Below the pieces are notes generated by a model. The model worked only from the letters and a program-made list of their open reading frames with translations. It did no database searches and was not told where the DNA came from. The position numbers and the translations under genes were made by a program. DNA of 64,000 bases, taken from positions 21,985,740 to 22,049,739 of the forward strand of contig NC_077245.1 in NCBI RefSeq assembly GCF_947179165.1, written 5' to 3'. The first letter of the stretch is position 1, and each line of letters opens with the position of its first letter. This stretch comes from Solanum dulcamara (taxonomy: Eukaryota; Streptophyta; Magnoliopsida; Solanales; Solanaceae). Positions 1,322 to 61,916 of the stretch are shown here, in pieces.

Positions 1322-2080
1322 AATCTGCATTCTCTAGCATAATGACCAAATTTTTCATACACAAAACAACCATATTGCTTGGACTTCTTGAATTTCTTTT
1401 AATCCTTTTTAGGACCAAGAGAATTTCATTTCTTTGATTTTTCTTTGTCAGATTTGTTTGAGGGTTTATTCAAAGCATTGGCCTTATATTGCCATTATAA
1501 GAATTTTCATTCTTATCTCTCTCCCTTGATTCTTCTTCGATTCGAAGGTGCTTTTGAATTTCTTCCAAAGAAAATTCTTTAGAATCATGGAGAATTTTCT
1601 TCCTATATCCTTTCCAAGATGTTGACAATTTTGTTATAATTGCTCCAACTTGAAAAGGCACAGGAAGTTCAATTCCTGCAATCCGTAATTGATTTACTAT
1701 AGCCTATAGTTCATGCACTTGTGCCAAATAGGCTTATCATCATTAAACTTAAACTCAAAATACTTAGAAACAAGAGACTTTTTGGTACCTTCCTCCTCGT
1801 CTTTGTATTTAAATTTCAAAGCATTCTAGATTTTATTTGCCAAAGGTTCAATAGTATAGAGATCATAAAGACGATCTGAAAGTGTGTTGAGAATGTGACC
1901 TCTACACATGATTTCATATTCCTCTCTCTTTTTTCTTTGTGCCTTAAGTTCTTGAGAATCATCATCCTTTGGTGAAGGAATCAGAGTAAGGTTTGAATCA
2001 AGCACATAAAATATCTTCAAAGCAGTTAACATAAACTTTAATTTATCCCTCCATCTTGTGAAATTTGCGCCATCAAATTA
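1322..2080 (-). pseudogene. copia gag remnant with damaged zinc knuckle
   Basis: Degenerate gag of a copia element (UBN2/DUF4219-like nucleocapsid precursor). Reading from 2080 downward the frame gives [15 protein letters not shown] and then a stretch with LTALKIFYVLDSNL, both typical of the N-terminus of plant copia gag. The piece 1826-2032 is open; further pieces lie at 1470-1661. A CCHC knuckle is recognisable at about 1331-1372 (CFVYEKFGHYARECR), but the second cysteine is a tyrosine, so zinc binding is probably lost. The first few codons and the ATG are missing at the 2080 junction. Confidence 0.75.
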
Positions 2081-2780
2081 ATCAAGACGGACAAAATCAT
2101 TTTTTGGGACATATTGTGTCAGCTAAAGGTGTGAAGGTGGATCCTGGTAAGATTTGTGCTATTGTTGAATGGAAACAGCCTAAAAGTTCAACTGAAGTAA
2201 GAAGTTTCTTGGGTTTAGCAGGATACTATAGAAGGTTTGTCAAAGGCTTATCCACTATAGCCTCTCCTTTGACCAAACTCTTAAGGAAGGATGTCAAGTT
2301 CATATGGGATGAAAAATGTCAAGAGAGCTTTGAAAAGCTTAAATCCTTATTGACACAAGCTCCTATACTCACTCTACCAACTGAAGGAAAAGAGTATGTG
2401 ATATATAGTGATGCTTTTCATCATGGTCTGGGTTGTGTCTTGATGAAAGAAGGGAAAGTGGTTTTGTATGCCTCCCGAAAATTGAAACCACATGAATTGA
2501 ACTATCCTACTCATGACCTGAGCTCGCTGCCGTAGTGTTTGCTTTAAAAATTTGGAGGCATTACTTATATGGAGAAAAGTGTCGCATATTTACTGATCAC
2601 AAGAGTTTAAAGTACTTGAATACTCAAAAAGAGTTGAATTTGAGACAACATAGATGGCTTGAACTTATTAAAAATTATGACTGTACCATTGATTATCATC
2701 TCGATAAAGCCAATGTGGTTGCAGATATTTTAAGTCACAAAGCCTTTGCTAGTTTATCTCTCAGTCCTTTGGCCTTATTT
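2081..2780 (+). pseudogene. gypsy-1 RT C-terminus and RNase H
   Basis: First recognisable residues are [15 protein letters not shown], the segment just after the RT thumb in plant chromoviruses, followed by [12 protein letters not shown] and the RNase H domain ([25 protein letters not shown], then [15 protein letters not shown] and [10 protein letters not shown]). A one-base deletion near 2518 splits the domain into two frames (2065-2535 and 2535-2876). The second frame then runs out of register near 2780. RNase H would have removed the RNA template during reverse transcription. Confidence 0.8.
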
Positions 2781-2799
2781 TTTGAATTACGAGCCATGA

Positions 2800-4290
2800 A
2801 TGCTTGTCTTGCATTTATTCTGATGGCTCTATTGTTTCTAGTTTGCAAGTCAAGCCAGATCTACTTAAACAGGTGAAAGAAGCACAGAAGTTAGATGAGA
2901 AGCTTGTAAAATTGATCAAAGGAGTTCAAACCGGAGGAAATCTTGATTTTAATTTAGGGGAGGATGGTGTTCTATTTTATCTAAATAGGTTATTTGTTCC
3001 AAAAGATGACAACTTGAGGAAAGAAATTTTGAATGAAACACATACTTCACCATATGAAATGCATCCTGGAGGTATCAAAATGTACCAAACCATCAAAGAA
3101 CACTACTGGTGGAATGGTATAAAGAAGGACATTGCGAAATATATTTCTAAATGCTTATCTTGTTAACAAATAAAGGCCGAGCATCAAGTTCCAATAGGGT
3201 TATTACAACCTTTATCGATACCTGAGTGGAAATGGGAAAGAATAATCATGGACTTTATTTCTGGGCTTCCATGCACTCAAAGAAATCATGATGCAATTTG
3301 GGTTATAGTTGATAGGCTAACCAAAAGTGCTCATTTCTTGTCCATCAGAATGGACTACCCACTTGAATATTTAGCAGAATTGTATGTTAATAAGATTGTG
3401 AGGCTACATGGAGTTCTTATTTCTATTGTATCTGACCGAGACCCAAAGTTTACATCTAGATTCTGGACTATCTTGCAAGAAGCTTTGGGAAATAGGTTGA
3501 ACTTTAGTACTTCTTTCCATCCTTAGACTGACGGCCAATCCGAGAGGTTGATTCAAATCTTGGAAGATATGCTTCGAGCTTGCATTATGAAATTTGAAGG
3601 TAGTTGGGACAGACACCTAGCCTTGATAGAATTCGCTTATAATAATAGCTACCAATTAAGTATTGGCATGCCTCCCTACGAAGCCTTATATGGGATAACG
3701 TGTAGAACTTCTCTTTGCTGGAGTGAAGTTGGTGAACGAAAACTGGTTGGTCCTGAGATTGTGCAACAAACTGAAGATAAGGTAAAAGTCATCAAAGATC
3801 ATCTAAAAATTGCTTCGGATAGACAAAATTCTTATGCTAATCTTAAGAGGTGTGAAATTGAGCATCAAGTGGGAGATAAGGTATTTTTACAGATTTCTCC
3901 ATGGAAGAAGATTATGATATTTGGCCAAAAAGGAAAACTTAGTCCTCGGTTTATTGGACCATATGAAGTGCTTGAGAGAGTTGGTCTAGTTGCATATAAA
4001 CTAGCTCTTCCACTGGAGTTAGATAGGATCCACAATGTCTTCCATGTTTCTATGCTTAGAAGATATCGCTCAGATCCATCTCATGTTCTTCCTATCTAAT
4101 CCATGGAGGTAAGTCCTGACTTGACATATGATGAGGAACCTATCCAAATCTTGGCCCATGTGATAAAATAGATTAGAAATAAGAAAGTTTCTTTAGTAAA
4201 AGTCCTTTGGAGAAGTCATTCTGGCAAAGAAGCAACCTGGGAGAAAGAAGAGGATATGCGAATTCAATATCCCCATTTGTTTCGAAACTA
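2800..4290 (+). pseudogene. gypsy-1 integrase and chromodomain
   Basis: Zinc-binding region, rve core and C-terminal domain in order. Visible landmarks are HPGGIKMYQTIKEHYWW and CLSC (HHCC zinc finger), MDFISGLP and VSDRDPKFTS (catalytic aspartates), the DGQSERLIQ segment around the catalytic glutamate, and GPYEVLERVG further on. The end reads EATWEKEEDMRIQYPHLF near 4220-4285, the chromodomain-like tail of the Tekay/Del type. Stops interrupt it at 3164-3166 (after CLSC), 3524-3526 and 4098-4100, so it is a pseudogene. Chromodomains are thought to guide chromoviruses to heterochromatin. Confidence 0.8.
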
Positions 4291-4321
4291 GCATCAGGTA
4301 AATTTAGGGATAAAATTTCTT

Positions 4322-4335
4322 AAGGGGAAGAGAGT
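4322..4335 (+). other. gypsy-1 polypurine tract
   Basis: AAGGGGAAGAGAG directly in front of the LTR start TGTAACACCCC. This is the expected plus-strand DNA primer and fixes both the orientation of the element and the left edge of its 3' LTR. Confidence 0.75.
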
Positions 4336-6638
4336 TGTAACACCCCAAAAGCGTTTAGCGAATACTTGAATTTTTGATATATCATATCTTGATAGTAAGG
4401 GCATATTTTACTTTGCACTTCCTGAATGTGAACTTGACGACATTTGAAACTTGTTTGAAGTGTTATGGTGTAGCTATATAAATTACTCCTACTATGGTTA
4501 TCTTATAAAATTTATTAAATGGATTAGATATTTATAAAAGTAGGCAGCCCCTTTTTTTATTTAATTATGTTCATCTTTATCTTACTAAGTTAGATATATA
4601 CCCTTGGTTCTTTTTCTCTCCACCACCCCTCCAATTTCATTTTCTCCAAGGAAGAAAGACACCAAAATCTCTATTCTCTTATAATATTTATTTACTAAAT
4701 CAATCATCAAGACTTTCCTTGGTTGAGCCCCAAATAACTTCACACGATTGAAGTAAGTTACAAACCCATTTTGGACTGGACTGCTATTACTTTTTTTTAG
4801 CATAATTCCTTTTATAAAGCTCCTCTTTAAGTGATTCAAGATGGTATAGAACTATATTTCATAGTACTACAACTTTAGTTCAGGCACCAAAATCCATTTT
4901 TTCTTATATCTACTCGAAAATGTGCGGGAAAGTAAAGGGAAGGTGCTGCCCAAAATTCTATTTTGCAAACCCTACATGTACTGCTGTTAGTATTTTAAGC
5001 ATATATTTTCTGTAAATAACTTCTATAGGGTGATTCTAATATCCATGAAACCTCAAAACATATATGTACAACTTTTATTAAGGCCACAAAGTCTATTTTT
5101 GTCGTTTATCCCTTTGAAATTGAGTGACGATACATGATAGTAGTACTATCTAAAATTTCTGTTTTAACAGTTTTGGTTGATTTTCACTGATTTTCCTATT
5201 TAGTTTTGATGTGCTGAACCATTGAACTTAAGTAGATATTTGATTGTGTATTTATGGTATGCTCTTGTACAAGCCTAGAAGAATTGTTTGGCGCAGATGA
5301 TTCAAACATTGCAAATTATGGTAGAACTTATGTTGTGATAAAACACCAAGGTTTGTGTATAAACTTGAACTTGAAATATCTTTATCTTCTGGAATTTTTA
5401 AAATAGCTTAATAGGTTGCTTCCTTACTCTTCATCTTGTAGCATTGTATGGTTATTATCTCAAGTATGGTAGAGTTTTTGCTAAATCACTCACTTGTACG
5501 AATTGCTTGATCATTTTACATTCTTGTTGGGACATTGTCCTTCTTGTTGCGGTGACTTATCATCTATATAGGCATACCTCTTGATTCGGATCTTTTCTAT
5601 CTTGACTTTGGATTTGCATTTCGTGTTGATGATGGACTTTTTTCCATTCTCGATTACAAGTGGGAAGCCACTTTCAACATGACTCGTGATCCTCTTGATT
5701 ATTGGGTGACAACCCTTCTTGCTTTGGGGCTTCAATCCTTCTTGATATGGGATTCGGTCCATCTTGATATTGATTATGCTTAATGTTATGGCATGACTTA
5801 CATATTGGGTGAAATTGGTTATTGGACAAACTCTCTTGAATTGATTTATAAGCTTTCTTGACACTTGAGCCTTCGAATATGGATATCAATATTTTGAAAC
5901 TCTTCAAGGTTTGATATTTGGTATTTTAATATACTTGGTTACTTGATTTTTTTTGTATCATTGATCTACCTACTATGGATAAGGGAATTGGAGAATCTAA
6001 TGGCTCCAAGTCCTAGGTTTATGCACCACTAAGCTTTATGCTTAGCGATAGTTATTTTCTATCGTAGATAATATTCAGGAAGAGAACTGAAGGTGGCCAT
6101 TTGGAGTAGCATTTTTGGGAGCTTTAGTGAAGATCACATTTGAATATACATCTAGGTCTTATAAAATTTTGGGGACTTATACATGATCCATATGTCACAC
6201 TTATGTATGAAATCCCGGAGGCTTGTTGAACACAAGACCATATGCTTGTAACTTGAACTTGGAGACATGTTTTACTATTTTAGAGTGTACTTTCAACCCA
6301 AGTCATGCCATGTACTGTGTTTATATTTTTTCTTGTAATTATGTACAACAAAAGATGCTAGTTTCTTTGATAATTGCAAGTTTGAGTTTCATGTTTCTTA
6401 TGGAACCAATAGTGGCATTGATTTGAAAATATAAATTCCTAAACAAAGTTCTTAAATGTGGACTACTTGAGAAAGGCATTACCATCTTAAATTGATACTC
6501 TAATAGTGTATTTCATCTAAGAAATTTTTTGGGGGATACAATGGAAAAAGAATATCTTTTGGCATAAATTCCTCCTAAACATTTTAAGTATTAAATTAGC
6601 TTTTGTTTTGTAAGTGGTATCCTCCCAATGGGATGCTA
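4336..6638 (+). repeat. gypsy-1 3' LTR
   Basis: Begins TGTAACACCCC right after the polypurine tract and ends GGGATGCTA at 6638, where the integrase frame of gypsy-2 begins. The right end is set by comparison with the visible tail of the 5' LTR at 63977-64000 (minus strand). Length about 2.3 kb. No convincing gene lies in it; small minus-strand open frames around 5511-5907 have the composition of low-complexity LTR sequence. The terminal CA expected of an LTR is TA here. Confidence 0.65.
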
Positions 6639-7617
6639 CGCGATATATTTTCTACTGGTTAAGACTTCTTATAGTGACGAAGATTATACTAAGTTGTATA
6701 TTCGTGAGTTGGTAAGACTTTATGGTGTCCTCGTGTATATTATATCGAATAGATGTAATCAATTCACCTCATATTTTTGGAAGTCATTTCAAAAAGGTCT
6801 TGGTACGAAAGTTAAGTTAAGTACCGCTTTTTACCCTCAAGCCGATGGCTAAGCAAAAAGAACAATTAAAACTTTCGAGGATATGTTGAGGGCATGTGTC
6901 ATTAATTTCACAAGAATTTGGGATGAGAATTTACCATTGATTGAGTTTTCCTATAACAATAGCTATCACTCAAGCATTAAAATGGCTCCTTTTGAAGCTT
7001 TATATAGGAGAAGATGTAGGTCCCCTGTGGGATGGTTTGAAGTGGGTGAGATGGCATTGATTGGTCTCTATTTGGTGATAGATGCTATGGAGAAAGTAAG
7101 GTTTAGAAGATAAAAATTAAAGACAGATCAAAGTCACCAAAACTCATATTCGGACATAAGAAGGAGAGACCTTGAATTTAAAGAGGATAATTGGGTCTAT
7201 TTAGAGGTTTTGCCCATGAAGGTTATAATGCGTTTTTGTAAGAAAGGAAAACTGAGTCCTAGGTATGTAGGACCTTAAAAGATCTTGAAGCGGGTTGGTA
7301 AAGTAGCATATGAGTTAGATTTGCCATTGGAGTCCGCTATGGTTCATCTGGTGTATCATGTATCAATGTTGAGGAAGTTTGTGGGTGATCCAAATTCTAT
7401 TGTGCTAATAGAAAGTGTGAGTGTTGAAGAGAACTTGACTTATGAGGAGGTTCCGGTTGAGATTTTAGACCGCCAAGTTAGAAAGTTGAGGAACAAGGAA
7501 GTTGCATCCGTTAAGGTCTTAAGGAGGAATCAAGAAGTTGAGAGCGCTAGAAGGAAAGCAGAAACGGACATGAGGAAATTATATCCTTACCTCTTTCCTT
7601 TTGATCCATCCTAAGGT
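6639..7617 (+). pseudogene. gypsy-2 integrase C-terminal part and chromodomain
   Basis: Second chromovirus, entered in the middle of the integrase core: FLLVKTSYSDEDYTKLYI, then IISNRCNQFTSYFWKSF (catalytic Asp region, degenerate) and AFYPQADG followed by a stop at 6850-6852. The frame resumes with LPLIEFSYNNSYHSSI and RRCRSPVGWFEVGE, shifts near 7110, and after a stop at 7276-7278 ends with VAYELDLPLESAMVHLVYHVSMLRKF-type sequence (7285-7614) and a chromodomain-like tail ending YPYLFPFDPS. The abrupt start is the insertion point of gypsy-1; its 5' half would lie beyond the right edge of the window if the inversion described in the findings is real. Confidence 0.75.
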
Positions 7618-7828: not shown

Positions 7829-9437
7829 TGTTGTAATACTTCAAGTATGTGAAAGTTATAATATGATATGAGGAAATTAATTAACCTTGTTGAATTCATT
7901 GATGGGTCAAGGGTGATTTTAATTAAGGGCATTATAGACGTTTCCTTATTTTAAGTAGAGAATAAACCTAGACAATTTTGGGGCTAGGTTCCTAACCTAT
8001 TTAATCCCTAAAGCTCTAAAATTTCCTTATTCATTCACAATTCACCCATGATAAAATTCTCTCTCTACAAAAGACTCTCAAGACCTCTATTGAAAACCAA
8101 GCAAGGATTGTCTCAAATTCTCCATTAATCTTCAAGTTTTCTTCAAGATTCTTCAAAATTCTTATTAAACGTATACGAGTTTCATCCATGGGTACCCTTC
8201 ACCCATGGAGTTTCAAGAATTATTCAAACTTTCCATGAATTTTAATTACATCATAAATCTTCTCAATTTCAAATTTCAATTGCATGAACTATGATGTATT
8301 TTGTGAATTCAAATCTATTTTAGTATGGTGATAATAATAATTGCATGGAATTGATAGTTTTTTTCAACATATAATCACTACATTGCTATTTAGGGCATAG
8401 AATCTCATTGTGGGTGATGAGTACCTTTTGAAAAATGCTGAAAATCTGGAATTTAGTCGAAGAAATGCTAGGGCGGTGCGCCACCATCGTCCCAGGAACA
8501 ACCCCTAGTAGTTTAGGGGCTGGGGTGGCATGCCAGCAGTGCGCCAAGCCCTGGTCTCTAAAGTTTGAGACCTGGGGCTGCGCGCCAGCAGTGAGCCACC
8601 GCCCTGATTCTTCCCTACACTAATCATTTTATGTATTTGATCCATACCTTTCATCAACTACTCTTTCAAGTGCATGAATTACGTTTCAATAATGATTTAA
8701 TCTCTCTCATCTAAGTATGAATTACTACTAGATTGCATGATGTTAACTTGGTTTACAAAGACTCACTCATGATGTTACTTTCAAGTATGACTATGCAAGT
8801 ATGATTTATAAAGAGTTTGAATATGAATGAGATATGAGATATAATGAGTTTGAACCTGGATGTTCCAATGATGTTTTAAGAAGTTATTATGATATGATAA
8901 GGACAATTCTCACACAATCATGATTAAGCTGGTAATAAGTACAATTCTCACCAAAGTATATGGATTCTTATGAATCACTAAAGTTAATGAGCTACTCTAA
9001 TGATTATCTTCATGATGATATATTAATGTTTTTAATGAATTCCTTTGGGATACTGACTAAGCACCGAGATGACTATTAAGTGGGGTTTGGTCCGATAACG
9101 CATTAGTTACCCAAGGAAATCCTAGTAGCAACTTATAGTCCATATCTACGTTAGCTAGTGGATCCACACATAGTAAAGTTAAATTAGTGCCATGACGGAG
9201 TATACCCTGGCAAGGTCGCCTCCCCCTTCTTGATGTGGAGATCACCGGATTCTATGTTATAGCTCTCATGGTCTTAAATGTCAGTTAAAGGCCTTATCCC
9301 ACACAAGTTATATGAAATGATGTAACTTTTACTATGTAGTTTATGATGCGTTGACCTCATGCTTTCAATATGAATTCAAATGTTTTTAAATCTTATCCTT
9401 TCTTCTCATTATATTTGTGTCGTACATCATATTTTCA
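7829..9437 (+). repeat. gypsy-2 3' LTR, left part
   Basis: Begins TGTTGTAATACTTC after the polypurine tract. It carries a GC-rich cassette of short inverted repeats (about 8455-8605, core GCGCCA/TGGCGC). It is interrupted at 9437/9438 by the LARD-like minus-strand element and resumes at 21208. With both parts the LTR is about 2.1 kb. Confidence 0.7.
8455..8605. repeat. GC-rich inverted-repeat cassette in gypsy-2 LTR
   Basis: Against an AT-rich background this block repeats short self-complementary words (GGTGCGCCACC, TGGCATGCCA, TGCGCGCCA). It lies about 630-780 bases from the LTR start, comparable to similar cassettes in other LTRs of the window. Confidence 0.55.
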
Positions 9438-11907
9438 TGATCCAAAATTGGGTGTGATGACACTCACCTAACCCACCAAGACGAGTTAGTCTAAGAGTCC
9501 AATCACTCAAAATAAAATGCACTAAAAGCGGAGATATAAAGTCTAATACGACATAGATAAGGATAAGAAAAAAAAATAGATTCTAAACCACCCAAGACTT
9601 GGTATCACATATACAAGCACTATTTCAACATAAATGAAAAAGGTACAAGTCTATATGTCTCAGTCCTCAAGTAGAATAAAGTATAAAGTAAATAGGCGGC
9701 GAGAGTCTGCCGAAGAAAACAAGCTGCTACCTCTCACGCGTCCAGAAGTTCAGCCCAATCAACAGAAGTACTGATAGCAGGACATGCCAAGCTCAGATCT
9801 TAAATAGATGTAGAAGTAAGGGGTGAGCACCAATACGGTACTCAGCAAAATTGAAACTAAACCCTAAGTAAAGCAATGCGGAACACAGATACTCCTAACA
9901 TCCCAACCACAATCCTCCACAACTACATACTTGCACTCAGACTACCTAATCTATACAATTTATATCACAATTATACCAGAATATTAGACAGTCCACAAGT
10001 AGAATTTACATATACGTTCTTACCATCATACTCAGGAAATCACAAGAAATCTTAATTATAATCAAATAAAAGATGAAATAGATACAAATGCAATGTCAAT
10101 TAATCATGATGCATGTTTCTCATATGATACACATCCGCTGATAAACTCATACCGGAACCCATGGGGGCCTCATACAGACTATGTATTCACCGAAAGTGAC
10201 CTCAGGCAATATCTGCCGGAAGAGACCTCGGCCATAATATCCACCGAAAGAGACCTTGGCAATCGGAAAAGACCTCGGCAAATCACCTCGACTAGTAGAA
10301 ACCTCCGTCCCAAAATCCAGTACCTCACTCATATCATTTCTCAGTCATCACAGATAAGTATATTCACAAGTAATAAGTAAAACTAGAAAAATTCACATAA
10401 GATGTCATATAGTCCACAATGACATAATAAGTCAATGTATCGTAATTCACAACACTTAGAAAATTATCCATATCTAAATTCCACTATCATACTTCAAATC
10501 ATATAATTCAACTCAATCTAATAACCCAACACACCATAATTCCCTCATATAAGAAAATACAAGGTTCAACATGCTTAACAAAGGGTAGAATTCCACTTGC
10601 CTTAGCCAAAAATCACGAACAATTTGAACTTAAAGCTTTTTCTCTCTGATGATACTCCAACTTACCAATATCTAATCAAATATAGACTCATAATCATATT
10701 TTGAAACTATTGACACAAAAATCAAGCAATTCGGGTGAAAAGGGTAAAATGATCAAAAATCCTATATTGGAAAATGAACTCAAAATCTGGATATTTTTAG
10801 ATGAAAACATTCTTCAAGTAGTCAGAAATCTAATGGTGAAAACCATTTCAAAAATGAGGTTAAAATGAGTTCCAAATCCCCATTTCTCCTTCAAAAGTTC
10901 ATGTTCAAGAAAACTCAAAATCTCCAATTTGAAATCCACAATTTGAAGTTAAAATCCAAAAATATTCAATGAAAATTGAAGAAAAGTGTTAGAAATACAT
11001 TATCCAAGAGTTTTGTCGCAAGAAACTTTGAAGAAATCTCCTAAACCAAGATTGAAAATGTTAAAAATGGTGAAAATACCTTAAACCTCGTCTAAACCCT
11101 CTTAGATGTCGCTTAAGCGACTGAGTCTTCAGTTTTGCGGAGGTTCTCTTTCTCAAACCCCGCCTAAGTGAGCCTCTTCTCTTAAGCAATGGGTCGCTAA
11201 AAGTGAACCTGGTCTACTTAAGAGAACCCTGCACTAGCACTAGAAAATTTAACTTAGTTAAAACTCAAGCCTCCGATCGAACCATCGGGATTTGTATGGC
11301 ACCCAGTATACACAAACTAGATACACAACACCACTAAATTTGATGTTCTGGACTCAATAGAATTATCATATTTTGAATTCGAGGTCTTCTTAATACGAAA
11401 TTTGATAAACCGCAACTCAACTAGCTTCGACAGTTGAAATACTCAAAATACCCTCGGGACCTCTAAAATTACAATAACGCCATTTCTAGCATTAGAATCA
11501 TCCCAAAACTATTAGAACCATCAGAAATTCAATCTGAGCACGAACCCAAATGTTGACCAAAGTCAAACTTTGATCAAACGATAACTCAATTTCCAACTTC
11601 GAACCTAAAATCCACGTTTCAACTCCGAATTTGATTCTGACAACTCTCCTAGACCAATTTCCACATTTTAAAACTATTAGAATAAATTGAATTTGATTCT
11701 GAGACTCAAAAGTCCAAATGACTCCAAGACTCAAAATTTGACAACTTAAGCCTTTAAAACTCATTTCTTTAGTAAAACCTCAATTTTTCATAAGATTTTC
11801 AAAAATCAGCTTTCAAACCCAATCTAAAATAACTCGGGGCAACTTAAAAGAGGGGTAAAACTATAATTTTATCAAAAATATCAAAAATGATCTTTTGAGT
11901 CATTACA
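9438..11907 (-). repeat. LARD-like element, 3' LTR
   Basis: About 2.47 kb; homologous over its whole length to 18771-21207 with many substitutions and small indels. It contains the cassette of CGCTTAAGCG-type palindromes at about 11095-11235 and a 95-codon open frame (10093-10380, + strand) that is conserved in the other copy but antisense to the element. Confidence 0.8.
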
Positions 11908-17995: not shown

Positions 17996-18000
17996 AGGTC

Positions 18001-18746: not shown

Positions 18747-18764
18747 CTGGGCTCTGATATCAAT
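18747..18764 (-). other. primer binding site of the LARD-like element
   Basis: Minus strand reads TTGATATCAGAGCCCAGG six bases from the LTR end. This matches the plant initiator tRNA-Met primer site (TGGTATCAGAGC) with one change in the core. It sets the minus orientation. Confidence 0.75.
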
Positions 18765-18770
18765 TTTTTA

Positions 18771-21207
18771 TGATCCGAAATCGGGATTGATGGCACTCAC
18801 CTAACCCACCAAAATGAGTCAGCCTAAGAGTCCAAACACTTCAAAATAAAAGACAGTAAAAGTAGAAATGTAAAGTCTAATATGACATAAATAAGGATAA
18901 GAAAAAAACAGATTTTAAACCACCTAAGACTTGGTATCACATATACAAGCACTATTTTAACAGAAATGGAAAAAGTACAAGTCTATATGTCTCATTCCTC
19001 AAGTAAAACAAAGCATAAAGAAAATAGGCGGCGAGAGTCTGTCGAAGAAGCCCAACCAACAGAAGTACTGAGAGCAGAAAATATCGGGCTCAAATCCTAC
19101 ATAGATGTAGAAGTAAGGGGTGAGCACCAACAATACGGTACTCAGCAAAATGGAAACTAAATCCTAAGTAAAGCAATGCGAAATACAGATACTCCTAACA
19201 TCCCAACCATAATCCTCCACCACTACACACCTGCACTCAGACTATCCAATCTATACAGTTTATATCATAATTATATCAGAATATTAGATAGTCCATAAGT
19301 AGAATGTACATATACGTTCTTACCACTATACTCAGACAAACACAGAAAATCTTAATTATAATCAAACAAAAGATGAAATAGATACAAATGCAATGTCAAT
19401 TAATCATAATGCATATTTATCATACGATACACATCCGTTGATCACCTCAGACCGAAACCCATGGGGGACTCACATAGACCACGTATCAGCCGAAAGTGAC
19501 CTCAGCCAATATCTGCCGGAAGAGACCTCAACCATAATATCCACCAAAAAAGACCTTAGCCACCGAAAGAGACCTTGGCAAATTACCTCGACGGGTAGAA
19601 ACCTCCGTCACAATATCCAATACCTCACTCATATCATTTCACAGCCATCAACGATAAGTATATGCACAAGTAATGAGTGAAACATGATAAATATTCATAT
19701 AAGATGTCATATAGTCCACAATCACACAATAAGTCAATGTCTCGTAATTCACAATACTTAGACAATTATCCCTATCTGAATTCCACTATCACACTTCAAA
19801 TCATATAATTCAACTCAATCTAATAATCCAACACACCCTAATTCCCTCACATAGGAAAATACAAGGTTCAATATACTTAACAAAGATTAGAATTCCACTT
19901 GCCTTAGCCAAAAGCCACGAACAATCCAAACTCAAAGCTTTTCCTCTCCGACGATACTTCAAATTACCACAATCTAATCACATATAGACTCACAATCACA
20001 TTTTTAAACTATTGACAATAAAATCAAGCAACTCGGGTGAAAAGGATAAACTGGTTAACATAAAATGTCAAAAAATGAACTCAAAATCTGGATATTTTTA
20101 GATAAAAATATTCTTCAAGTAGTCAGTAATTTAATAGTGTAAACTATTTTTAAAACGAGATTAAAATTAGTTCAAAATCCCCATTTCTCCTTCAAAAATT
20201 CATGTTCAAGAAAAATCAAATTCTCCAATTTGAAATCCACAATTTAAAGTTAAAATCCGAAAATATTCAAAGGAAATTGAAGAAAATCTTAGAAATAAAT
20301 TATCCAAGAGTTTTTTTGCCGCAAAAAACCTCAAAGAAATCTCCTAAACCAAGCTTGGAAATGTTAAAAATGGTGAAAACACTTTAAACCTCGCCTAAAC
20401 CCTCTCAGATGTCGCTTAAGCGACTGGGTCTTTGCTTTTGCGGAGGTTCGTTTTCTCAAACCCCGCCTAAGTGAGCCACTTCGCTTAAGCGAAGCTTCGC
20501 TAAAAGCAAACCTGGTCCGCTTAAGCGGACCCTGCACCAGCACCAAAAAATTTAACTTAGTTAAAACTCAAGCCTCCGATCGGAGGCTCAAAATTTATTC
20601 GGGACCCCGTATACACATACTATTTATGCAAACCTACTAAATTCAACATTTCTGACTCAATGGAATCGTTGGATTTCGAATTTGAGGTCTCCTTGACCCG
20701 AAATCCGATAAGTCGCAACTCAACTAGTTTTGACACTTGAAATATCCAAAATACCCTCAAGAACTCTTAAAATTACAATGAAGCCATTTCTAGCTTTATA
20801 ATCACTTATCAAAGCATTAAAAACATCAAAAATCCAATATGAGCACATGAACCCCAAATGTTGACTAAAGTCAAACTCGTATCAAATTTTTAACTCAATT
20901 TCCAACTTTGAACCTAAAATCTACGTTTCAACTCTAAATCTGATTCCGACAACTCTCCTAGACCAATTTCCACATTTTAGAACTGTTGAAATTGACGAAA
21001 TTTCATTCCGAGACTTAAAACTCCAAATGACTCTAAGACTCAAAATTTGACAACTTAAGCCTTTAAACTCATTTCTTTAGTAAAACCTCAACTTTTCACA
21101 AGATTTTCAAAAATCAACTTTCAAACCCAATCTAAAATGACTCGGGGTAATTGACGAGAGGGGTAAAATGATAATTTTTATCAAAAATGACATTTTGGGT
21201 CATTACA
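18771..21207 (-). repeat. LARD-like element, 5' LTR
   Basis: Partner of 9438-11907, about 2.44 kb. The palindrome cassette at about 20395-20535 is better preserved here (CGCTTAAGCG, TTCGCTTAAGCGAAG, CCGCTTAAGCGG). It also carries the counterpart of the 95-codon open frame (19393-19680). Confidence 0.8.
20395..20535. repeat. CGCTTAAGCG palindrome cassette
   Basis: At least three near-perfect dyads centred on CTTAAG within 140 bases, in a locally GC-richer block 670-810 bases into the LTR. The counterpart in the other LTR (11095-11235) is more decayed. Confidence 0.6.
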
Positions 21208-24491: not shown

Positions 24492-24593
24492 TGTAAATAT
24501 TAAAATTTTATTGTATTTAAATCCGTAAATTAATTTGGACTATATTAAATTCAAGAAAATTAAATGAGCCACTAAAAGCAAACCACGTGTCAA

Positions 24594-24789
24594 AAGTTAT
24601 ATGGCAATTCAAATCAAATTAAATGAGCCACTAAAATTACACCACGTGTCAAAGTTATATGATAATTCAAGTCAAATTAAATGAGCTATTAGAATCATGC
24701 AATGTGCCAAAATTATGTAGCAATCCACGTGTCAAAGTTATGAGGCAATCTAAGTCAAATTAAATGAGCCACTAGAATAATGTCACGTG
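24594..24789 (+). promoter_or_regulatory. four G-boxes in tandem U3 repeats
   Basis: CACGTG occurs at 24594, 24643, 24726 and 24784 within repeated units of about 50-80 bases, 110-305 bases upstream of the TATA box. G-boxes bind bHLH and bZIP factors in plants, so the array is a candidate enhancer of the LTR promoter. Only about two of the four are kept in the 3' LTR (near 36237 and 36352). Confidence 0.6.
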
Positions 24790-24898
24790 TATAAGTGACA
24801 TGTTTTGACCAATCAAATTAAAGCTCTTCACCAAAGGAATCTGATTGGTCAGTTCAAATCAACCAATCAAATCACACCCTCATACCACTCCCTACAAC

Positions 24899-36979: not shown

Positions 36980-36984
36980 ATTGC

Positions 36985-38224: not shown

Positions 38225-38234
38225 ATATGGTATA

Positions 38235-39552
38235 AGTTAGATAAATTCATAATGTTAAGAGTTAATTACATTATTTTTTTACTATTTTTTAAATTATAAA
38301 AATTCTTTAAATTTTATGAATTTCGGATACATCACAGGACTTTCGGATATATCAGCATACATTCGGATACATAAATGAGAGATGTACCAGAGAGGGGAAA
38401 AGACATCCAGATACATAGGATAGGGGTGTGCATTATTTGGATTAAACCGGAAAACCAAACCAAATTAAACCGAATTTCAATTTGGATTGTTTTTTTGGTT
38501 TGGTTTTGAATTAAAAATTTACTTTTTTTTGATTTTTTTGTTTGGTTTCGGATTTAGAAAAATAAAATCCGAAAAACCGAAAAAACGATATATATAATAT
38601 TTAGGTTAAGAATTAAAGTTATAATTAACCACTTTCATCCCCTCTTTTTTAGCAAGATGATTTTTATTAGGGTTAGTAATTTACCGTACTAGGACTAAGC
38701 ATAATTCCCTTGCCATTCTTATTTTCCTAAATTATAGGTATTAGGTTATAATATGTTTAAACTAGAGTTAATTTTATTAAAAGTTTCATTATGATTTAGT
38801 TTAGATTTTATGTTTGGACATCTATTGGTATAATTTAAGTTGTTGTATTTTAAAGTTTTACTCATGACTTATATTAGAAAGTATATTTAAAAGATTAAAT
38901 ATTATTACTTCTTCCTGTATGTAATTTTTTTAGCATGCAAATATAACTTTGATTAAGCTATTAATTATTGACAAAATCGAATAGCCGAACCGAAGAAAAC
39001 CAAATCGAAAAGAGAAAAACCGAACCAAACTAATTTTTTTTGTTTAAATTGGATTACACTTTTTCAAAACCAAAAATCGAAAAATGGAAATCGAATAACA
39101 CAAAACCGAATGGAAAAATCAAATGCACAGTCCTAACATAGGGGAGGGATGTATCCGAGAGTGGGATGTGGATATATCAGCGCGAGAGGAGTGATGTATC
39201 CGAGAGGGGATTTTTGATTTTTTTTTAAAGGGTAAGGAATTTAGAGGTTATGGTAAAATAAGATGGTAGGGAGTGTGTATTTCCTACCATTTAAAAAAAA
39301 TAATTAAAAATCCCCTATTAGATACATCACTTCTATCTCACTGATATATCTTTATCCTCCTTTCGAATACATCCCTACCCTTTCTGATACATCTCTCCTC
39401 TATGTATCAGGGTGTATACTGATGTATCAAAAAGTCCAGTGATGTATTCGAAATTTACAAATTTTTTTAAAAAATTATAATTTAAAAAAATAAGAAAAAA
39501 TACAATTATCTCTTAATATTATGAGATTTATGTAGATTATATATAAGCGTAG
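38235..39552. repeat. long inverted repeat (foldback element) upstream of NSP2
   Basis: The left arm (38235-38420 continuing at 39136-39260) and right arm (about 39285-39550) are inverted copies. ATAATGTTAAGAG at the left matches CTCTTAATATTAT at the right. The arms share runs of GGATACAT/ATGTATCC words such as TTTCGGATACATCA versus TGATGTATTCGAAA. The arms flank a short centre and would give a hairpin if transcribed. The left arm is interrupted by a hAT-type MITE. The structure ends about 640 bases before the NSP2 start codon. Confidence 0.7.
38421..39135. mobile_element. hAT-type MITE with 8-bp TSD
   Basis: 715 bases; ends TAGGGGTGTGCATT and (complement) TAGGACTGTGCATT. It is flanked by ACATAGGA (38413-38420) and ACATAGGG (39136-39143), an 8-bp duplication with one change, the size used by hAT transposons. 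The inside is rich in AAACCGAA and TTCGGTTT words in both orientations and encodes nothing. Confidence 0.75.
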
Positions 39553-40194: not shown

Positions 40195-41685
40195 ATGGCG
40201 ATGATGATGGTTGATGAAACCATCCCAGATTTTGATTATTATGGTAGTTTAAGCACACCCACTACAACAACAACCTCCTCTTCTTCTGATGATGGTTGTA
40301 CATGGAATGACTGGTCGCCGGTTTTCGATTGGGATGCGTTTTCTGGTGGTGATAATTTCCAAGATCTAATTGAATCTATGATCCAGGGGAACAATTCCGC
40401 CTCAGGAGGGATATCTGCTAATTACTTTTACAACTCCGAGGATTCTGCTGGGATCATGATGGAGGAAGAAGAATCAGGAGACTCTAATAGCAACCAATCG
40501 GAAGATATCAACGGGCTGAAGCTTGTACACCTCCTCATGGCGGCAGCCGAGGCGTTAACCGGCGTGAACAAAAGCCGTGAGTTGGCTCGAGTGATATTGG
40601 TTCGGCTCAAGGAATTGGCGTCCCCAAACGGCGCCACCAATATGGAGAGATTGGCCGCGCATTTCACTGACGCCTTGCAGGCGTTGCTCGACGGCTCCTC
40701 TTCAGGAAACTTGCACGCTAAGCACATGTTTTCCCCAAATTACAAGGATGACCAGCATCAGGGAGATGTTCTAGCAGCTTTTCAGCTATTGCAGGACATG
40801 TCTCCTTTTGTTAAGTTTGGGCATTTCACAGCAAATCAAGCTATATTGGAATCTGTGGCCCATGATAGGAGAGTCCATATTGTGGACTACGATATAATGG
40901 AAGGAATTCAATGGGCCTCCTTAATGCAGGCATTGGTCTCCAGGAAAGATGGACCCCCAACTCCCCACCTTCGGATCACAGCATTGTCAAGGAGTGGCAG
41001 CGGCCGTCGCTCTTTCGGGACGGTCCAAGAGACCGGCCGTCGGTTAACAGCTTTCGCTGCATCCATCTGTCAGCCATTTTCGTTTCATCACTGCAGATTG
41101 GACTCGGACGCAATATTTAAGCCAACAAATCTCAAGTTGGTTAAAGGAGAAGCTCTAATTATAAATTGCATGCTTCACTTGCCTCATTTTAGCTATCGGG
41201 CCTCGGATTCAGTGGCTTCGTTCTTATCCGGATCCAAGACCCTGAATCCAAGACTCGTGACCCTAGTCGAAGAGGAATTAAGGCCCATAGGAGAAGAGGA
41301 AGGGTTCGTGGTTCGGTTCATGGACACTTTACACCACTACTCAGCACTCTTTGATTCTCTTGAGGCGGGATTCCCTTTGCAAAGTCGAGCTCGGGCATTG
41401 GTGGAGCGAGTATTCCTTGGGCCTCGAATAACCGGGTCATTGGCCCGGATCTACCGGACCCGAGGAGAGGACGAAAGGTTCTCATGGGGGGAGTGGTTGG
41501 GTGCAGTGGGGTTCAATGAGAGTAATATAAGCTTTGCAAATCATTGTCAAGCAAAGTTGTTGTTGGGGCTATTCAATGATGGGTATATGGTGGAGGAAAT
41601 TGGGACCAATAAGCTGGTTTTAGGATGGAAGTCCCGGCGCCTACTTTCTGCTTCTATTTGGACCACAATGGATTCTGACTTTTAA
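40195..41685 (+). CDS. NSP2: GRAS transcription factor, NSP2 type
   Basis: Intact single-exon gene, 496 codons. I take the ATG at 40195 (GCTATGG context, G at -3 and +4); an in-frame GTG at 40177 is not a likely plant start, and ATGs at 40201-40207 are alternatives. The N-terminus has a serine/threonine run and CTWNDWSPVFDWDAFSG, a conserved NSP2 signature. The GRAS domain follows: leucine-rich part I (about residues 105-144, LVHLLMAAAEALTG), the VHIID box as VHIVDYDIMEGIQW (227-240), leucine-rich part II, the PFYRE region (about 371-391, RFMDTLHHYSALFDSLEA) and the C-terminal SAW motif ending RRLLSASIW (481-489). In legumes NSP2 works with NSP1 in Nod-factor signalling. In other plants it acts in arbuscular mycorrhiza and strigolactone biosynthesis genes under phosphate starvation. 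Length fits the family. No damage seen; neighbours are all transposons. Confidence 0.93.
   Translation: MAMMMVDETIPDFDYYGSLSTPTTTTTSSSSDDGCTWNDWSPVFDWDAFSGGDNFQDLIESMIQGNNSASGGISANYFYNSEDSAGIMMEEEESGDSNSNQSEDINGLKLVHLLMAAAEALTGVNKSRELARVILVRLKELASPNGATNMERLAAHFTDALQALLDGSSSGNLHAKHMFSPNYKDDQHQGDVLAAFQLLQDMSPFVKFGHFTANQAILESVAHDRRVHIVDYDIMEGIQWASLMQALVSRKDGPPTPHLRITALSRSGSGRRSFGTVQETGRRLTAFAASICQPFSFHHCRLDSDAIFKPTNLKLVKGEALIINCMLHLPHFSYRASDSVASFLSGSKTLNPRLVTLVEEELRPIGEEEGFVVRFMDTLHHYSALFDSLEAGFPLQSRARALVERVFLGPRITGSLARIYRTRGEDERFSWGEWLGAVGFNESNISFANHCQAKLLLGLFNDGYMVEEIGTNKLVLGWKSRRLLSASIWTTMDSDF
40589..40609 (+). promoter_or_regulatory. miR171-type target site in NSP2
   Basis: The 21 bases start GAGTGATATTGG and end TTCGGCTCA. 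They are complementary to the miR171h class, which is known to target NSP2 in Medicago; against the sequence of that microRNA as I recall it, only two positions differ and one would be a wobble. It lies in codons 132-139 (RVILVRLK) inside leucine-rich region I, the same place as in legume NSP2. The classical HAM/SCL6 site has a different centre (GGCGCGGC). Confidence 0.8.
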
Positions 41686-44479: not shown

Positions 44480-46704
44480 TATCACACCCCGAGAAGGTAC
44501 CCTAGGTGTGGCCAGCACTCTGAGACCATTGTTGGCCCCAATCAATCTACTTGGTCTAATTACTCATTCAATCACATCAACGGAAGACTTAAAATAACTC
44601 AAAAGAGACGATTTAGTGGGCTAACAGCTCAATACTCAATAAATATGAAAATCTTAAAATCAACAATCTCAATTAGACCAACTCAATCTCATAAAATAGA
44701 GTTTTTGAGGAAAACAACAACTCAAGAGACTTCAACTCAATCTACTCAAGTTATGTCTAAGAAGCCTCTATTAACTGTCAAGAGGGTGCCGAGACAAGCT
44801 CACGGCTACCCAAAAGAAAATACTCAAAAGAAATAACTAAAAATAAATATGGTCCCTCCGGAAGCAAAGATGTCTCACCACTATCAGGAAGGAAAGGATC
44901 TTCAACGAAGCTCCTATTGATGAACTCTAGCACCTGCATCTGCATCATAAAACGATGCAGGTTAAATGGCATCAACACAGGAAATGTACGAGGATGTAAA
45001 ATAGCTGAAGGAAACACAATTCAACAACTCAACATCAAGGGAACTCAACTCAAAGACTCAATTCAAGAAACTCAACTCCAAGAACTCAACTCAAAAGACT
45101 CAACTCTGAAATCAACTCAACTCAATAAGTATGCAGTTTAAAAATAAATATTTCTTTGAAAATAAACTCAATAATATGAAATTCAACCACATCAAATTAA
45201 ATCATTTTAGGGAGTTTCTCTAACCGACAATCATCAATTATGAGCTAGTGATAATACAACCTTTGCACTGCCATTGATGTAGCCAACCAATACCTTGTCA
45301 GGGTAAGGGAAGATTAACCTCATTGAATCCACAATCAATCAACGTCCATTATTTTGGGACTTGAGAGGCATAGCTCTTATCCTACACTAGCTTCGTAGTT
45401 TATGGAATACGAGATATTAACTACTCTTACCCAAATCAGTGCTTAATACTACTCTCAAAAGACTCAATATGCTCATATACTCAATCAAGTAATTTAGTCT
45501 CATTGGACTCTTATCAATCTCAACTCATCTCAATCATCAAACTCTTTTGTGTCAAAGCATGCATTCAACTCATTCATAACTCCTCAAGACTCTCTCTCAA
45601 ATCAACCATGTAACTCAATGCTCAACTCATTTAGACTCAATGCTCGTTCTCTTTCAAACCTTAATAAAATATCCATGGACTCAGTTTAAAAGTCATAATA
45701 TGTTAAATGCAAAAAAATCATTCTCCTCATCTCAAAACAAATACATATATTGTAAAAATCATCAACTCGGCAAGGGTTCATGGGAATGAAATCATGAACA
45801 GTCAATTAAGAACTTCAATCATAAGAATCAATATATATATAGAACTCGATAATGAATTACATAAATAACTTATGAACTCAATCAAACAAGATTTGAACTT
45901 AAACTCTATCTCAATTTTGACGAAACGAATAAGTAGGACACAAGGATGAACTCAGTCCAGCATTGTGATTAGCCTTACATACCTGTAATTCAAAGAAATG
46001 ATCGAAACTCGAAGGGATTGCTTGAAGACCTTGAACCCTAACTTTTTTTCTTCTCTCCAATAGCTCCTCTCAAGAAAATACAAGTGTGAATGAGAGGAAA
46101 ACCCTAATGGATATTTTTAAAAGATTGATTTTTAGTCCTAAGACATGCAAGTTTCAATTGGGAAAGGGTTGAAAAAGACTGGGATGCCCTTCATTAAAAC
46201 TAAGTCGGGCACCTTCACGGACATCCACTACGGACCATGAAGCTCACCACGATGTGTGGTATGTGACCGTGGTCCTGAACATGAACTCATGTTGGGGGGT
46301 CGGCTTCACAGAGGTCACCACGGTCTGTGGTGGTCACTATGGTACCTGGAAGCCCTCGTGAGATTGATCCATCCCAAGGCTCTTGGGGTTAGGCTTCACA
46401 GATCCTTTCACAGTCTATGAAAGACCATTACGGGTCGTGGACCCCTCTTGTGGTCGACTCCAGACTTGGGGGTTTTGGGAATTAAGTCCACAGACGGATT
46501 CACGGTATGAGGTATGCACCATAGGCCGTAGACCCCTCCGTGATCCCTTTCTCTTCCTTCCCGTAATCTCAGTCGTCTTCATGGACCCTTTCCACGAGCC
46601 GTGGAGAGGACTATAATCCATGAAGGGGTCTCATGGTTAGTATCTCCTGCAACTTCTCTGACTTTTTAGAGTCATTTCAGGTTAGGGACTTCAGAAGTGT
46701 TACA
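44480..46704 (-). repeat. solo LTR in the gypsy-3 3' LTR
   Basis: Starts TATCACACCCCGAG (expected TGTCACACCCC) and ends AGTGTTACA, reading TGTAACACTTC on the minus strand. Flanks are TAATT (44475-44479) and TAATC (46705-46709). The partner LTR of gypsy-3 near 56950 shows the empty site GCATAATCATATG, confirming the insertion. Its start is homologous to the solo LTR at 50491. It carries a cassette of CCACGG/CCGTGG dyads (46195-46625). Confidence 0.82.
46195..46625. repeat. CCACGG/CCGTGG inverted-repeat cassette
   Basis: Repeated short dyads such as CACCACGGTCTGTGGTGG and CACGAGCCGTGG in a GC-rich block, 80-510 bases from the LTR start on the minus strand. The open frames here (46383-46616 +, 46415-46621 -) are a by-product of the dyads. 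Confidence 0.65.
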
Positions 46705-47200
46705 TAATCATATGAAATAGCATATACAAGGACAGTAACATAAGATTTCCAAGATCATACACATAGTGAAAGGACAGAAAAGAAAATAGTTGAATTTCAT
46801 GCATAAGTATCATTTAAAATCTTCTTTCAAAAGTATATATAGGGTTGAGCCTAATCCAGTAGTCATGTGTAATCGTATACATAAAATAACATACTAAAAA
46901 ATAAACCATATAAAGTTAAGAGCATATTGTAAGATGGTGCATAAACTATGGAGTTTCTTATAACCGACAAACACCATGTGAGCTCATTAGTCCAACTTAC
47001 AATCCAAGTTGGAAGGGTTTCCCTATACCTTGCCAGAGTATATGAACTATCTATCTACGTGGATCTACTAATCTGAGCCTCTCAGGGACAACAACCGACA
47101 AAGTGGTGAAACATAATCCTACGGTGGCAAGTAGTTATGAAATTTGAATTTTCTAAACTTGTGTACTCTTGGTACTAAATAGTCCTCTCAAAATAACATA

Positions 47201-48103
47201 TTACTATATAGTAGAAGCCGCTACAAGCACACATGTCAACATGTGTGCTTTGTAGAATTTAAATTACATTAAAGGTTATTTTGGTCATTTAAATATTAAA
47301 TTATTAAATAAATTTTTAATAATTTATATGTTTAAAAATTAGGTAAAATATATTATAAACAAGCACGCATGTCATGGTCTATGCTTTGTAGAATTTAAAT
47401 TACATTAAAGGTTATTAGGTCATTTACATATTAAACTATTAAATAAATTTTTAATAATTTATATTTAAAATTAGGTAAAATATATTATAAAGCACAATAA
47501 TTAACAACTTAAAATATTTTTAAAAATTATATAAAAAAATTATGGTCAAATAAAAAGTTGACATGACTCTACATATTTTATCCATACTACATAAGTTGAG
47601 ACAAAGAGTAAAAAAAAATTCAATAATTAAAAAGATATTTTCAATAATTTATATAATTACAAATAGCGATTAAAAAACTATAAATCATAATAATTAACAA
47701 ATAGTAATGAAAAAAATGAAAAAATTATGATCAAAGAAATTTTTTATTGACTCTCCAAATTTTATTTGTGGCACATAAATTGGGATAAAGGAGAAGTAAC
47801 ATATATTGAACTCGTGACATATAAATTTTTTTACAGTCGACGAAAAATTTGATTAACTTTCCAAATTTTATATGTGCAACATAAATTGGAATATAGAAAG
47901 TAAACACATTTTTGAATAATTTATATGTTGATAAATTACGTCAAAAATATTTTGAATTACAATAAGTAACAACTTAATTGGTTTTAAAAATTATGATCAA
48001 AGAAAATATTTGATTAACTTTTAAAATTCTATTTGTGTTACATAAATTCAAATAAAAAAGGTAATATATATCGGGTCATGCTGGCATGGGCTCCAATATC
48101 TAG
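47201..48103 (-). mobile_element. Helitron-like non-autonomous element
   Basis: About 900 AT-rich bases between A (47200) and T (48104). The end reads a 5-bp stem hairpin CATGC-TG-GCATG (48077-48088), 11 bases, then CTAG|T, the Helitron 3' signature; the start TTACTATATAGTAG would be TC in a fresh copy. The homologous LTR at 57440-57460 gives the empty site, and joining the flanks at A|T aligns to it without a gap and without a target duplication. Strand is not certain (the + strand carries the 3' signature). Contains a 136-base tandem duplication. Confidence 0.65.
47225..47495. repeat. tandem duplication inside the Helitron-like element
   Basis: AAGCACACATGTC at 47225 and AAGCACGCATGTC at 47361 start two copies of about 136 bases that share GCTTTGTAGAATTTAAATTAC and the TAAATAAATTTTTAATAATT run. 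Confidence 0.8.
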
Positions 48104-48639
48104 TATTCATATAAATGCTCGTAAGTATGAAAACCATCTATTTACCAGAATAATATGTGAGAGTAAGCTTAAAAGTCAAATCCAAAAGAGCCTGTGCTAG
48201 GGTTGTAATTCATATCATGCTAGTTTTCATCCTTAAAAGTCATAAGGGTTTGAATAACCATAAAAATCATGCTAAATCAGTATAATAAGGTTTTTAGACT
48301 AAAGTGGAACAATGAAAACATGAATTAATGAGGAAAGATTTACTTCTAACAATTTTGTAAAAGTCTTAAAATCAAAATAGTTTAAGCACGAGAGTGAATG
48401 AATACTCTCATTGAAATCTTATATACCTGAGAGAACAGGACTTAGAAAGAAGAACTTATTTTGGTGCCTTGAAACCCTAGCTTTTGCCTTACTTACGGTG
48501 GTTTTTGAACTTTGATGTAGTTGAGAGCATGGAGACTAAGTTCTTGAAAGAGAAAGACCCTTATTAAAATGCCAAAATGCCATGGCTTAGGCTTAAAATA
48601 ATGAAAAAAGACAAAAAAAATCTTGACTTAAAAACTGTT

Positions 48640-56578: not shown

Positions 56579-56582
56579 AGTT

Positions 56583-58064
56583 TGTCATAATCCGAGTATA
56601 CACCCTAGCCAAGATACGATATCTAGAACCATAAGTGACCCAAGCTAACTCTTGGCATAACATATCTAAGCAATACTCATGAAAATTAAAGCAAAACCTA
56701 AAACACATGTGTAACATAAGACTAAATAATGAAAATCAAGAGATCTATGAGACTATATTATAAATGTCTAAATAAAGTCTCTACTAATTAGAATGAAGAC
56801 TCACCAAATGTTGACTGGAAGTGTTGAAACCTGACTAGCCACAAGTCTGAGAACAGGTACCGAAATATACACCATAAAATGATGTAGCACAGAGAAAATA
56901 TATGCGGTTAGGATGTGGAATGTACTGAGTAAGTAAGAGACACTAGCATAATCATATGACATAGCATATACAAGGACAGTGAAATAAGATTTCCAAGATC
57001 ATTACATAGTGAAAGAACTAAAATGAAAATAGTTGGAGTTCATGAATAAGTATCATTTAAAATTTTCTTTCAGAAACATATATAGGGTTGAGTCTAATTC
57101 AATAGTATTGTGTAATCATATACATAAAATAGCATACTTAAATGATCATATAAAGTTAAGAGAATATCGTAAGAAGGTCCATAAAGTGTAGAGTTTCTTA
57201 TAACTAACATATATTATATAAGCTCATGATGTCCAACTTATAATCCCACTTGGAAGGGATGCCCTATACCTTGCCAGAGTATAGGACCTATCTATCTATG
57301 TGGATCCACTAATCTGAGTCTCTCAGGGCCAAATGGTCAGCCAACAAAGCGGTAAAACATTATCTTACAGTGACACGTAGTTATGAGATTTAGATTTTCT
57401 AAACCCATATCCTCTCGGTGCTAAATAGTTCTTCCAAAATAATATGTATTCATATAAATGCTCATAAGTATAAAAACCATCTATTTATCTAAATTATATA
57501 TGAGACAATGCTCAAAAGTCATATTCAAAATAGCCTGTGTTGGGGTTGTAATTTATATCATGCTAGTTTTCATCTTTAAAAGTCATAAGGGTTTGAATAA
57601 CCATAAAAATCATGCTAAATCGGTACAATAAGGTTTTAAAACTAAAGTGGAACAATGAAAACACGAATTAATGAGGAAAGATCATAAATTTCATAAGAGC
57701 CCTAACTTTGCTTCTAATAATCTTGTAAAAGTCTTGAAATTAAAATAATTTAGGCGCTAGAGTGAAGGGATACTCACATTGAAATCTTACATACCTGAGA
57801 GAATGAGACTTAGAAAGAAGAACTTGCTTTGGTGCCTTGGAACCCTAGCTTTTGCCTTGCTTATAATGGTTTCTGAACTTTGAGGAAGTTAAGAGCGTAG
57901 AGACTAAGTTTTTATTTTTAAGAGAAAGACCCTTTTTAGAATGCTAAAACGTCATGGCTTAGGCTTCAGAATAATGGAAAAATACAAAAGAAACCCTGAC
58001 TTAAAAATTGTTTCCTTAGTTTCATGTGACTTGATCTAGACTTTGGAATTTCTAAGGCGTTACA
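56583..58064 (-). repeat. gypsy-3 5' LTR
   Basis: 1482 bases, TGTCATAATCCGAG to GGCGTTACA (+ strand). It is the uninterrupted partner of 44011-49157 and provides the empty sites for two of the nested insertions. It lacks the inverted-repeat cassette of its partner. Confidence 0.82.
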
Positions 58065-60350: not shown

Positions 60351-60399
60351 TCCAAAATCGTATTAATACTTTTTTGATCTAAACGTATTGTATTTTGTT

Positions 60400-61324
60400 T
60401 CTTTTGTTTTAACACAATCACTGGACCACACTAATCAAAAGTCAGATCAGTATGTGAGAAAAGGAGTGTGTTACCTTTGTTGATTTTCAGGCTTACTCAG
60501 AAAAATTTCATGGGGAATTAATGAGTCACGTAAAAAAAAAAAAAAGCTTTGTGTTTAGCCTTAAATTTGTGATTAGAATAACAATTGAATTTATTTTAGT
60601 GCTTCAAGGGCACGTGGATTATAGTGATGAAATAATACGTTCTTGCTGCTAAATTACTTGTTAATGAGTAGCCAAAGCGATAATTAATAACAACAGACAC
60701 TAAAGAAATGAATAAAATGTATTAAACTAACTCCAGCGCAATCGTTTCAACTATATATGCGTTCAAATTTTGTTTAAATTAAATTATTAATATAAGTTTT
60801 CTTAAATGAAAAAGTATATTTTTTCATTCTTTAGTTGGTGTCTTTTAATGAAAGAGTGTATCTTTTAATTCTTTAGTTGGTGTTTTTTAAATGAAAGAGT
60901 CTTTTACAGAAAACATTTTCTTTACAACATTCTCCAAAGAAATATTTTCTTCTACAAAAGATCAAGTCTTCAAGTTCTTGCTTTTCAATAGGATTTCTTC
61001 ACTATTTGCTTAATGCAGAAATTCATAGGGTTGACATATCCACTAAAACTATTTGCATACAATCCCATAGCAATCTCTTGGAGGAGAGGGAGCAAATATC
61101 ATTTTTAGGAAAGTGTTTTGCACGTGTTTGAAGTCTACAATTTTGCATTCTTTGTTCATATTATCAAACCTTCATCTTCGTGTTCTTCTTCATATAAATT
61201 TGTGTCCTTGATATATATTTTCCAATAATCTAAAAACAATATTTGCCTTTTGGTTTAAGTGCATTCAACACCTTTCTAAAGCTGAACAATTATTTCATTT
61301 GATTTGATAGTTATATTTTTTGTC
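60400..61324 (+). repeat. copia-like 5' LTR and leader
   Basis: AT-rich, with a TATA-like CTATATATG near 60754 and repeats of TTCTTTAGTTGGTGTCTTTT and AATGAAAGAGT (about 60830-60905), a layout seen in copia LTRs of Solanaceae. It leads on the + strand into a start codon at 61325. I could not fix the LTR ends or a primer site. Confidence 0.45.
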
Positions 61325-61350
61325 ATGGATTTTGACACTATCAAAATCAT
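61325..61350 (+). pseudogene. first codons of a copia-type gag, cut off
   Basis: The ATG at 61325 opens MDFDTIKIM and then stops making sense at 61350, where minus-strand gypsy RT begins. The copia gag at the left end of the window lacks exactly its first codons. Taken together they look like the two sides of one broken gene. Confidence 0.55.
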
Positions 61351-61916
61351 GCTTCACCCAGCCAAAATTCACATTTGGAGAGCTTAGCATAAAGCCTGTT
61401 CTCTTCCAAAATTTGCAAAACAATCTGGAGATGCTTTTCATGATCTTCACTATTCTTGGAATATATTAAAATGTCATCTATAAAGACCACCATAAATTGA
61501 TCAAGATAAGGCTTAAACACACGATTCATCAGATCCATGAATGCCGCAATAGCATTTGTCAACCTGAATGGCATCACCAAGAATTCATAATGATCATATC
61601 GAGTCCTAAAGGCAGTTTTAGGGATATCTTGTTCACATACCTGATGTTGGTAATACCCAAACCTCAAGTCAGTTTTTGAGAACAACCTAGCACCCTTTAG
61701 CTGGTCAAATAAATCATCAATCCTAGACAGTGGATATCTATTTTTAATTGTCACCTTTTTCAATAGCCGGTAATCAATATAGAGTCTAAGAGTGTCATCT
61801 TTCTTTTGCATGAACAAAATAGGAGCTCTCCAAGGAGAAACACTTGGGCGAATAAAACCTTTCTTAAGAAGTTCTTGTAATTGAATTTTCAACTCCTTTA
61901 ATTCCATTGGAGCCAT
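61347..61916 (-). pseudogene. gypsy-1 reverse transcriptase
   Basis: Well-preserved [79 protein letters not shown] and the catalytic [10 protein letters not shown] near 61455-61490. The open frame runs 190 codons and ends in KCEFWLGEA, two or three residues short of the next conserved block. Upstream it is out of frame with the protease piece (shift near 61930-62050). It is less damaged than other elements in the window. Confidence 0.85.

Follow-up and report, generated by a model that had tools for sequence, protein, structure and literature searches.

Inversions in plants can arise by two described routes, breakage followed by non-homologous end joining and recombination between repeats; both are given in the excerpts used here of a review on plant inversions (PMC7093584). 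Between human and chimpanzee, 49 of 252 inversions are bounded on both sides by elements of the same kind in opposite orientation, which recombined with each other, as far as the excerpt of that study goes (PMC2603318). Inversions are also common in Solanaceae: the parts drawn on of the tomato and eggplant pangenome papers report them in both crops, including 1,320 below 1 Mb in 12 tomato accessions (PMC10181942, PMC13039718).

We analysed a stretch of 64,000 nucleotides of the Solanum dulcamara genome (the window). Two retrotransposons, one copia and one gypsy, are each found in two pieces at opposite ends of the window, and this arrangement was probably produced by a real inversion of about 59.25 kb (about 2099 to 61351) through end joining. 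The features used in the argument are as follows.

1..2098, minus strand: copia body, from just after the gag start to before the reverse transcriptase (RT), running on past the left edge of the window.
2098..2100, no strand: left junction, placed by the reading frames on either side and by relatives.
2100..4335, plus strand: gypsy 3' coding half with RNase H, integrase zinc finger and SH3-like tail (PF17919, PF17917, PF24626, PF17921).
4336..6638, plus strand: gypsy 3' LTR of about 2.3 kb, its outer end approximate; polypurine tract before TGTAAC at 4336, tail matching the right edge of the window.
40195..41685, plus strand: NSP2 (GRAS protein), complete reading frame in the inverted segment, identified by the GRAS domain PF03514 and Solanaceae NSP2 relatives; first ATG at 40195.
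61325..61351, plus strand: copia gag start, first nine codons, all nine residues equal to residues 1-9 of the relative P0123; leader upstream.
61349..61352, no strand: right junction, placed by reading frames and relatives.
61352..63958, minus strand: gypsy 5' half with gag, protease and RT (PF03732, PF19259, PF08284, PF00078).
63959..63970, minus strand: gypsy primer-binding site, one mismatch to the initiator-methionine type.
63977..64000, minus strand: gypsy 5' LTR tail, cut off by the window edge, equal to 6615-6638 at 22 of 24 positions.

At the left junction, the minus-strand copia extends up to 2098 and the plus-strand gypsy begins from 2100, and base 2099 is assignable to neither. The copia gag, read on the minus strand from its start at 2098, meets a stop after six codons and carries further damage, and the gypsy polyprotein at 2100 opens in the middle of the protein. 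An earlier note on this DNA had described this join of the two elements as we found it but put it at about 2080, a position that we correct to 2098/2100. At the right junction, the ATG at 61325 opens nine plus-strand copia codons with the last base at 61351, and the minus-strand gypsy RT, certain from 61352, is broken off abruptly. Bases 61349-61351 are compatible with either copia or gypsy; the join of a plus-strand copia start with a minus-strand gypsy half, claimed at about 61350, is therefore kept and its exact placing refined to 61349-61352. A short tandem repeat (60802-60900, unit of 42 bases, 2.3 copies) was also detected in what is presumably the LTR or leader region of copia.

Through the Pfam scan of the pieces, each gypsy domain was found on one side only: the right side has gag, protease and RT, and the left side has RNase H, the integrase zinc finger and the SH3-like tail. 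The integrase-core piece of the left half had no match above the Pfam threshold. For the right half, a query of 189 aa (P0001) gave 7992 relatives, which are all those scored, and the best 120 were listed. The two halves were compared separately with these 120 listed relatives, and the alignment ends were extended to the ends of the halves. Both halves were matched by 81 of the 120, and in 79 of the 81 exactly one residue lies between the halves; the remaining two show a spacing of -25. In the 37 relatives that extend far enough into both halves, the mean identity was 71% for the right half and 64% for the left, values that compare different domains, and the identities of left and right halves showed a weak rank correlation (0.36, p 0.03).

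The outer parts of the gypsy element were also compared. The LTR tail at the right edge (63977-64000) corresponds to 6615-6638 as claimed before, and nothing else in the window comes within five mismatches of it. The primer-binding site at 63970-63959 was recognised by its motif of the initiator-methionine type. Considering the tail match, this site and the polypurine tract together, the right edge very likely holds the beginning of the element that has its end at 2100-6638. The two halves together thus supply gag, protease, RT, RNase H, the integrase zinc finger and the SH3 tail, along with the primer-binding site, one LTR and the tail of its partner. Elsewhere in the window, gypsy RT sequence also occurs at about 54.5-53.5 kb and 29.6-30.6 kb, but with only 26-53% identity to the right half, so these stretches belong to other gypsy families. 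In viral contigs, a pattern search with the two gypsy halves and the gag alignment matched 4, 4 and 47 stretches, respectively, none of which was confirmed.

Right after the gypsy LTR there is a second gypsy-like integrase region (6639-7333, plus strand), which has 65% identity to 50298-49629 on the minus strand. The first gypsy may have been inserted into this region, which predicts that the other part of the region is located past the right edge.

For copia, a search with the gag piece next to the left junction found 248 relatives. Among the best 120, which were listed, P0123 is the top match of the left copia half. The copia body shows 86% identity with the P0123 gag over 125 aa and 89% in another stretch of 37 aa, and it contains a Pol_BBD domain (PF22936, E 3.9e-19); a gag_pre-integrs match (E 1.2e-4) is under Pfam's cut-off. 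The window's own gag pieces had no match in the Pfam scan, and PF14223 is carried by most of the listed gag relatives (best 120 of 248). Gag (its relatives mostly PF14223, UBN2 type) and Pol_BBD are thus inside the window, and the copia RT and 3' LTR are outside it. No copia primer-binding site was recognised, the best candidate having three mismatches.

The start of P0123 consists of nine residues identical to the nine at the right junction, then two more, and then the stretch where the left junction opens. Among the best 120 listed relatives, 82 have a recognisable start motif, and the exact nine-residue start is present in one of them, which is P0123. At the two positions between the copia halves, an N-Q or N-H pair is found in 91 of the 102 relatives that reach far enough upstream (again among the best 120 listed). 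Since the nine-residue start and the top match of the left half are both P0123, two window pieces 59 kb apart point to one family member.

It had been proposed that copia and gypsy are split reciprocally with nothing obviously duplicated or lost. The reciprocal split is borne out, since each junction carries the other's missing part in opposite orientation, as indicated by the gypsy spacing in 79 of 81 relatives and by P0123. The absence of loss holds nearly: by the protein alignments, about six copia bases and a few gypsy bases seem to be absent compared with relatives.

The word CAAAATCAT, which had been noticed at both junctions, does exist at 2092 and 61342. It is also found at four more sites in the window, two on the plus strand and two on the minus strand, and sharing a word of at least nine bases is mildly unusual, as 18 of 3000 pairs of random 35-base stretches do so. 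As homology between the breakpoints this word was ruled out: at either junction, its first seven bases come from copia. These seven bases make up a small inverted repeat with the copia break inside it: the complementary arms, CAAAATC at the right junction and GATTTTG at the left, would flank the break about nine bases apart, judging from P0123, and 63 of 4000 random window positions are equally near such a 7-base stem. That a hairpin or cruciform at the copia gag start was the fragile point of the inversion is a doubtful suggestion, to which we give little weight; if true, it would account for the same word at both junctions. Between the 1-kb flanks of the breakpoints, no match was better than 15 bases at 93% (E 0.12) or 25 bases at 84% (E 0.43). 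Within the window, the two ends are not connected by any inverted repeat of at least 60 bases.

One inversion, broken within the copia gag start and where the gypsy RT ends, had been suggested in the earlier note, which allowed for a real as well as an assembly-made one; our analysis supports a single inversion, and it covers the junctions, the domain split and the right-edge LTR tail. Reversing the segment of about 59.25 kb would restore both elements on one strand, less the few bases mentioned above. In the ancestral order, copia and gypsy would each have been uninterrupted, with about 59 kb between them, and both would have been on the strand that is now minus. Two double-strand breaks would have occurred, the first right behind the copia gag start and the second where the gypsy RT domain ends, and the middle segment would have been rejoined turned round by end joining, with roughly ten bases lost in all. 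Both elements would be passive targets in this process. As there is no long homology in the breakpoint flanks, break-and-rejoin fits better than repeat recombination. The present order would be the derived one, given that it leaves both elements broken. By a rough estimate, using assumed lengths of about 5 and 10 kb and independent cut points, agreement within about six bases would arise by chance with a probability of about 1e-5 to 1e-6. The junctions, the fit of the halves and the lack of long homology between the breakpoint flanks were observed; the two breaks, the end joining, the direction of change and the presence of the inversion in the plant rather than in the assembly only are what we infer from them.

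An assembly artefact could give the same picture, if a contig some 59 kb long, ending in a retrotransposon on either side, had been misoriented and joined without a gap. Contig ends often lie within repeats, which would suit this explanation. Misorientation is moreover a recognised fault of Hi-C scaffolding and becomes more frequent as contigs shorten, according to the part used of a study on the method (PMC6719893). However, the window contains no N at all, nearly base-exact cuts would be required at both ends, and the sequences at the two breaks are unrelated and offer no long inverted repeat to confuse an assembler. Only about ten bases are missing in all, whereas a flipped contig might be expected to lose or repeat more. 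On the sequence at hand, the near base-exact reciprocity at both ends, the unrelated sequence at the breaks and the lack of N would favour a real inversion over an artefact, which we regard as unlikely.

The same reciprocity bears on the idea that the four halves stem from separate copies, or that one element was inserted inside another. Several other retrotransposon remains exist in the window, which could supply such copies; yet both elements are complementary within a few residues, both copia halves pick P0123, the low identity of the other gypsy RT stretches to the right half speaks against a chance meeting of copies, and a nested insertion would leave the halves in the same orientation instead of the opposite one found here. 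Coincidence or nesting could thus be considered very improbable. Ectopic recombination between inverted repeats is a known inversion route in plants and animals, as the excerpts cited at the start describe (PMC7093584, PMC2603318), but here the breaks are in different elements (copia gag and gypsy RT), and the 1-kb flanks share only short matches at chance level. Without inverted homologous repeats at both breaks, recombination between repeats was ruled out, and we give this route practically no probability.

The inverted segment had been said to carry NSP2, and the complete frame at 40195-41685 is indeed located inside it. The GRAS domain PF03514 is whole (profile positions 1-374 of 374), and the aligned identity is 92.2% with potato, 91.0% with Lycium, 90.2% with tomato isoform X2, 90.1% with Capsicum and 89.2% with tobacco. 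By these values, the plant would very likely be placed in Solanaceae, perhaps in Solanum but apart from potato and tomato. Since the gene is intact and the breaks are about 38 kb and about 20 kb away, the effect of the inversion on NSP2 is probably small. That the inversion is young and polymorphic and changes the surroundings of NSP2 is a suggestion of low probability. Just upstream of the gene, two inverted repeat arms (38231-38396 and 39378-39541, 79% identity, about 1 kb apart) were found, possibly a small DNA transposon. A tandem array at 34964-35504 has a basic unit of 23 bases with higher-order units of 69, 92 and 115 bases.

Three pairs of long direct repeats with 83-85% identity were also detected (9426-11907 and 18759-21207; 24492-25355 and 36114-36980; 46703-48639 and 56947-58012), which are probably the paired LTRs of old elements. 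In each case, both members are wholly inside the inverted segment and in one orientation, so no further inversion break is indicated between them.

A single sequence can thus reveal an inversion, its breakpoints near to the base and its direction when both breaks hit mobile elements. The two junctions are ready for PCR, by which an inverted segment with a symbiosis-signalling regulator could be checked as true, fixed or polymorphic. In the portions consulted of the papers cited here, where NSP2 was not among the search terms, we met no description of this inversion.

Compared with the plant inversions made by end joining, in so far as the review excerpts characterise them (PMC7093584), the present locus shows the same breaks in unrelated sequence and, by the reading given above, would share a small loss and a segment turned round; it differs in that the evidence comes from two split mobile elements in one sequence instead of from a comparison genome. 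With the human-chimpanzee inversions made by retrotransposon recombination, as the cited excerpt presents them (PMC2603318), it shares retrotransposons at both breakpoints and exchanged halves, but the elements here are unrelated, and no homologous recombination took place between them. Like the inversions in the portions used of the tomato and eggplant pangenome papers (PMC10181942, PMC13039718), it would be an inversion within Solanaceae. The kind of event is well known, and this case is a neat one, as the split elements give the breakpoints and the direction without a second genome.
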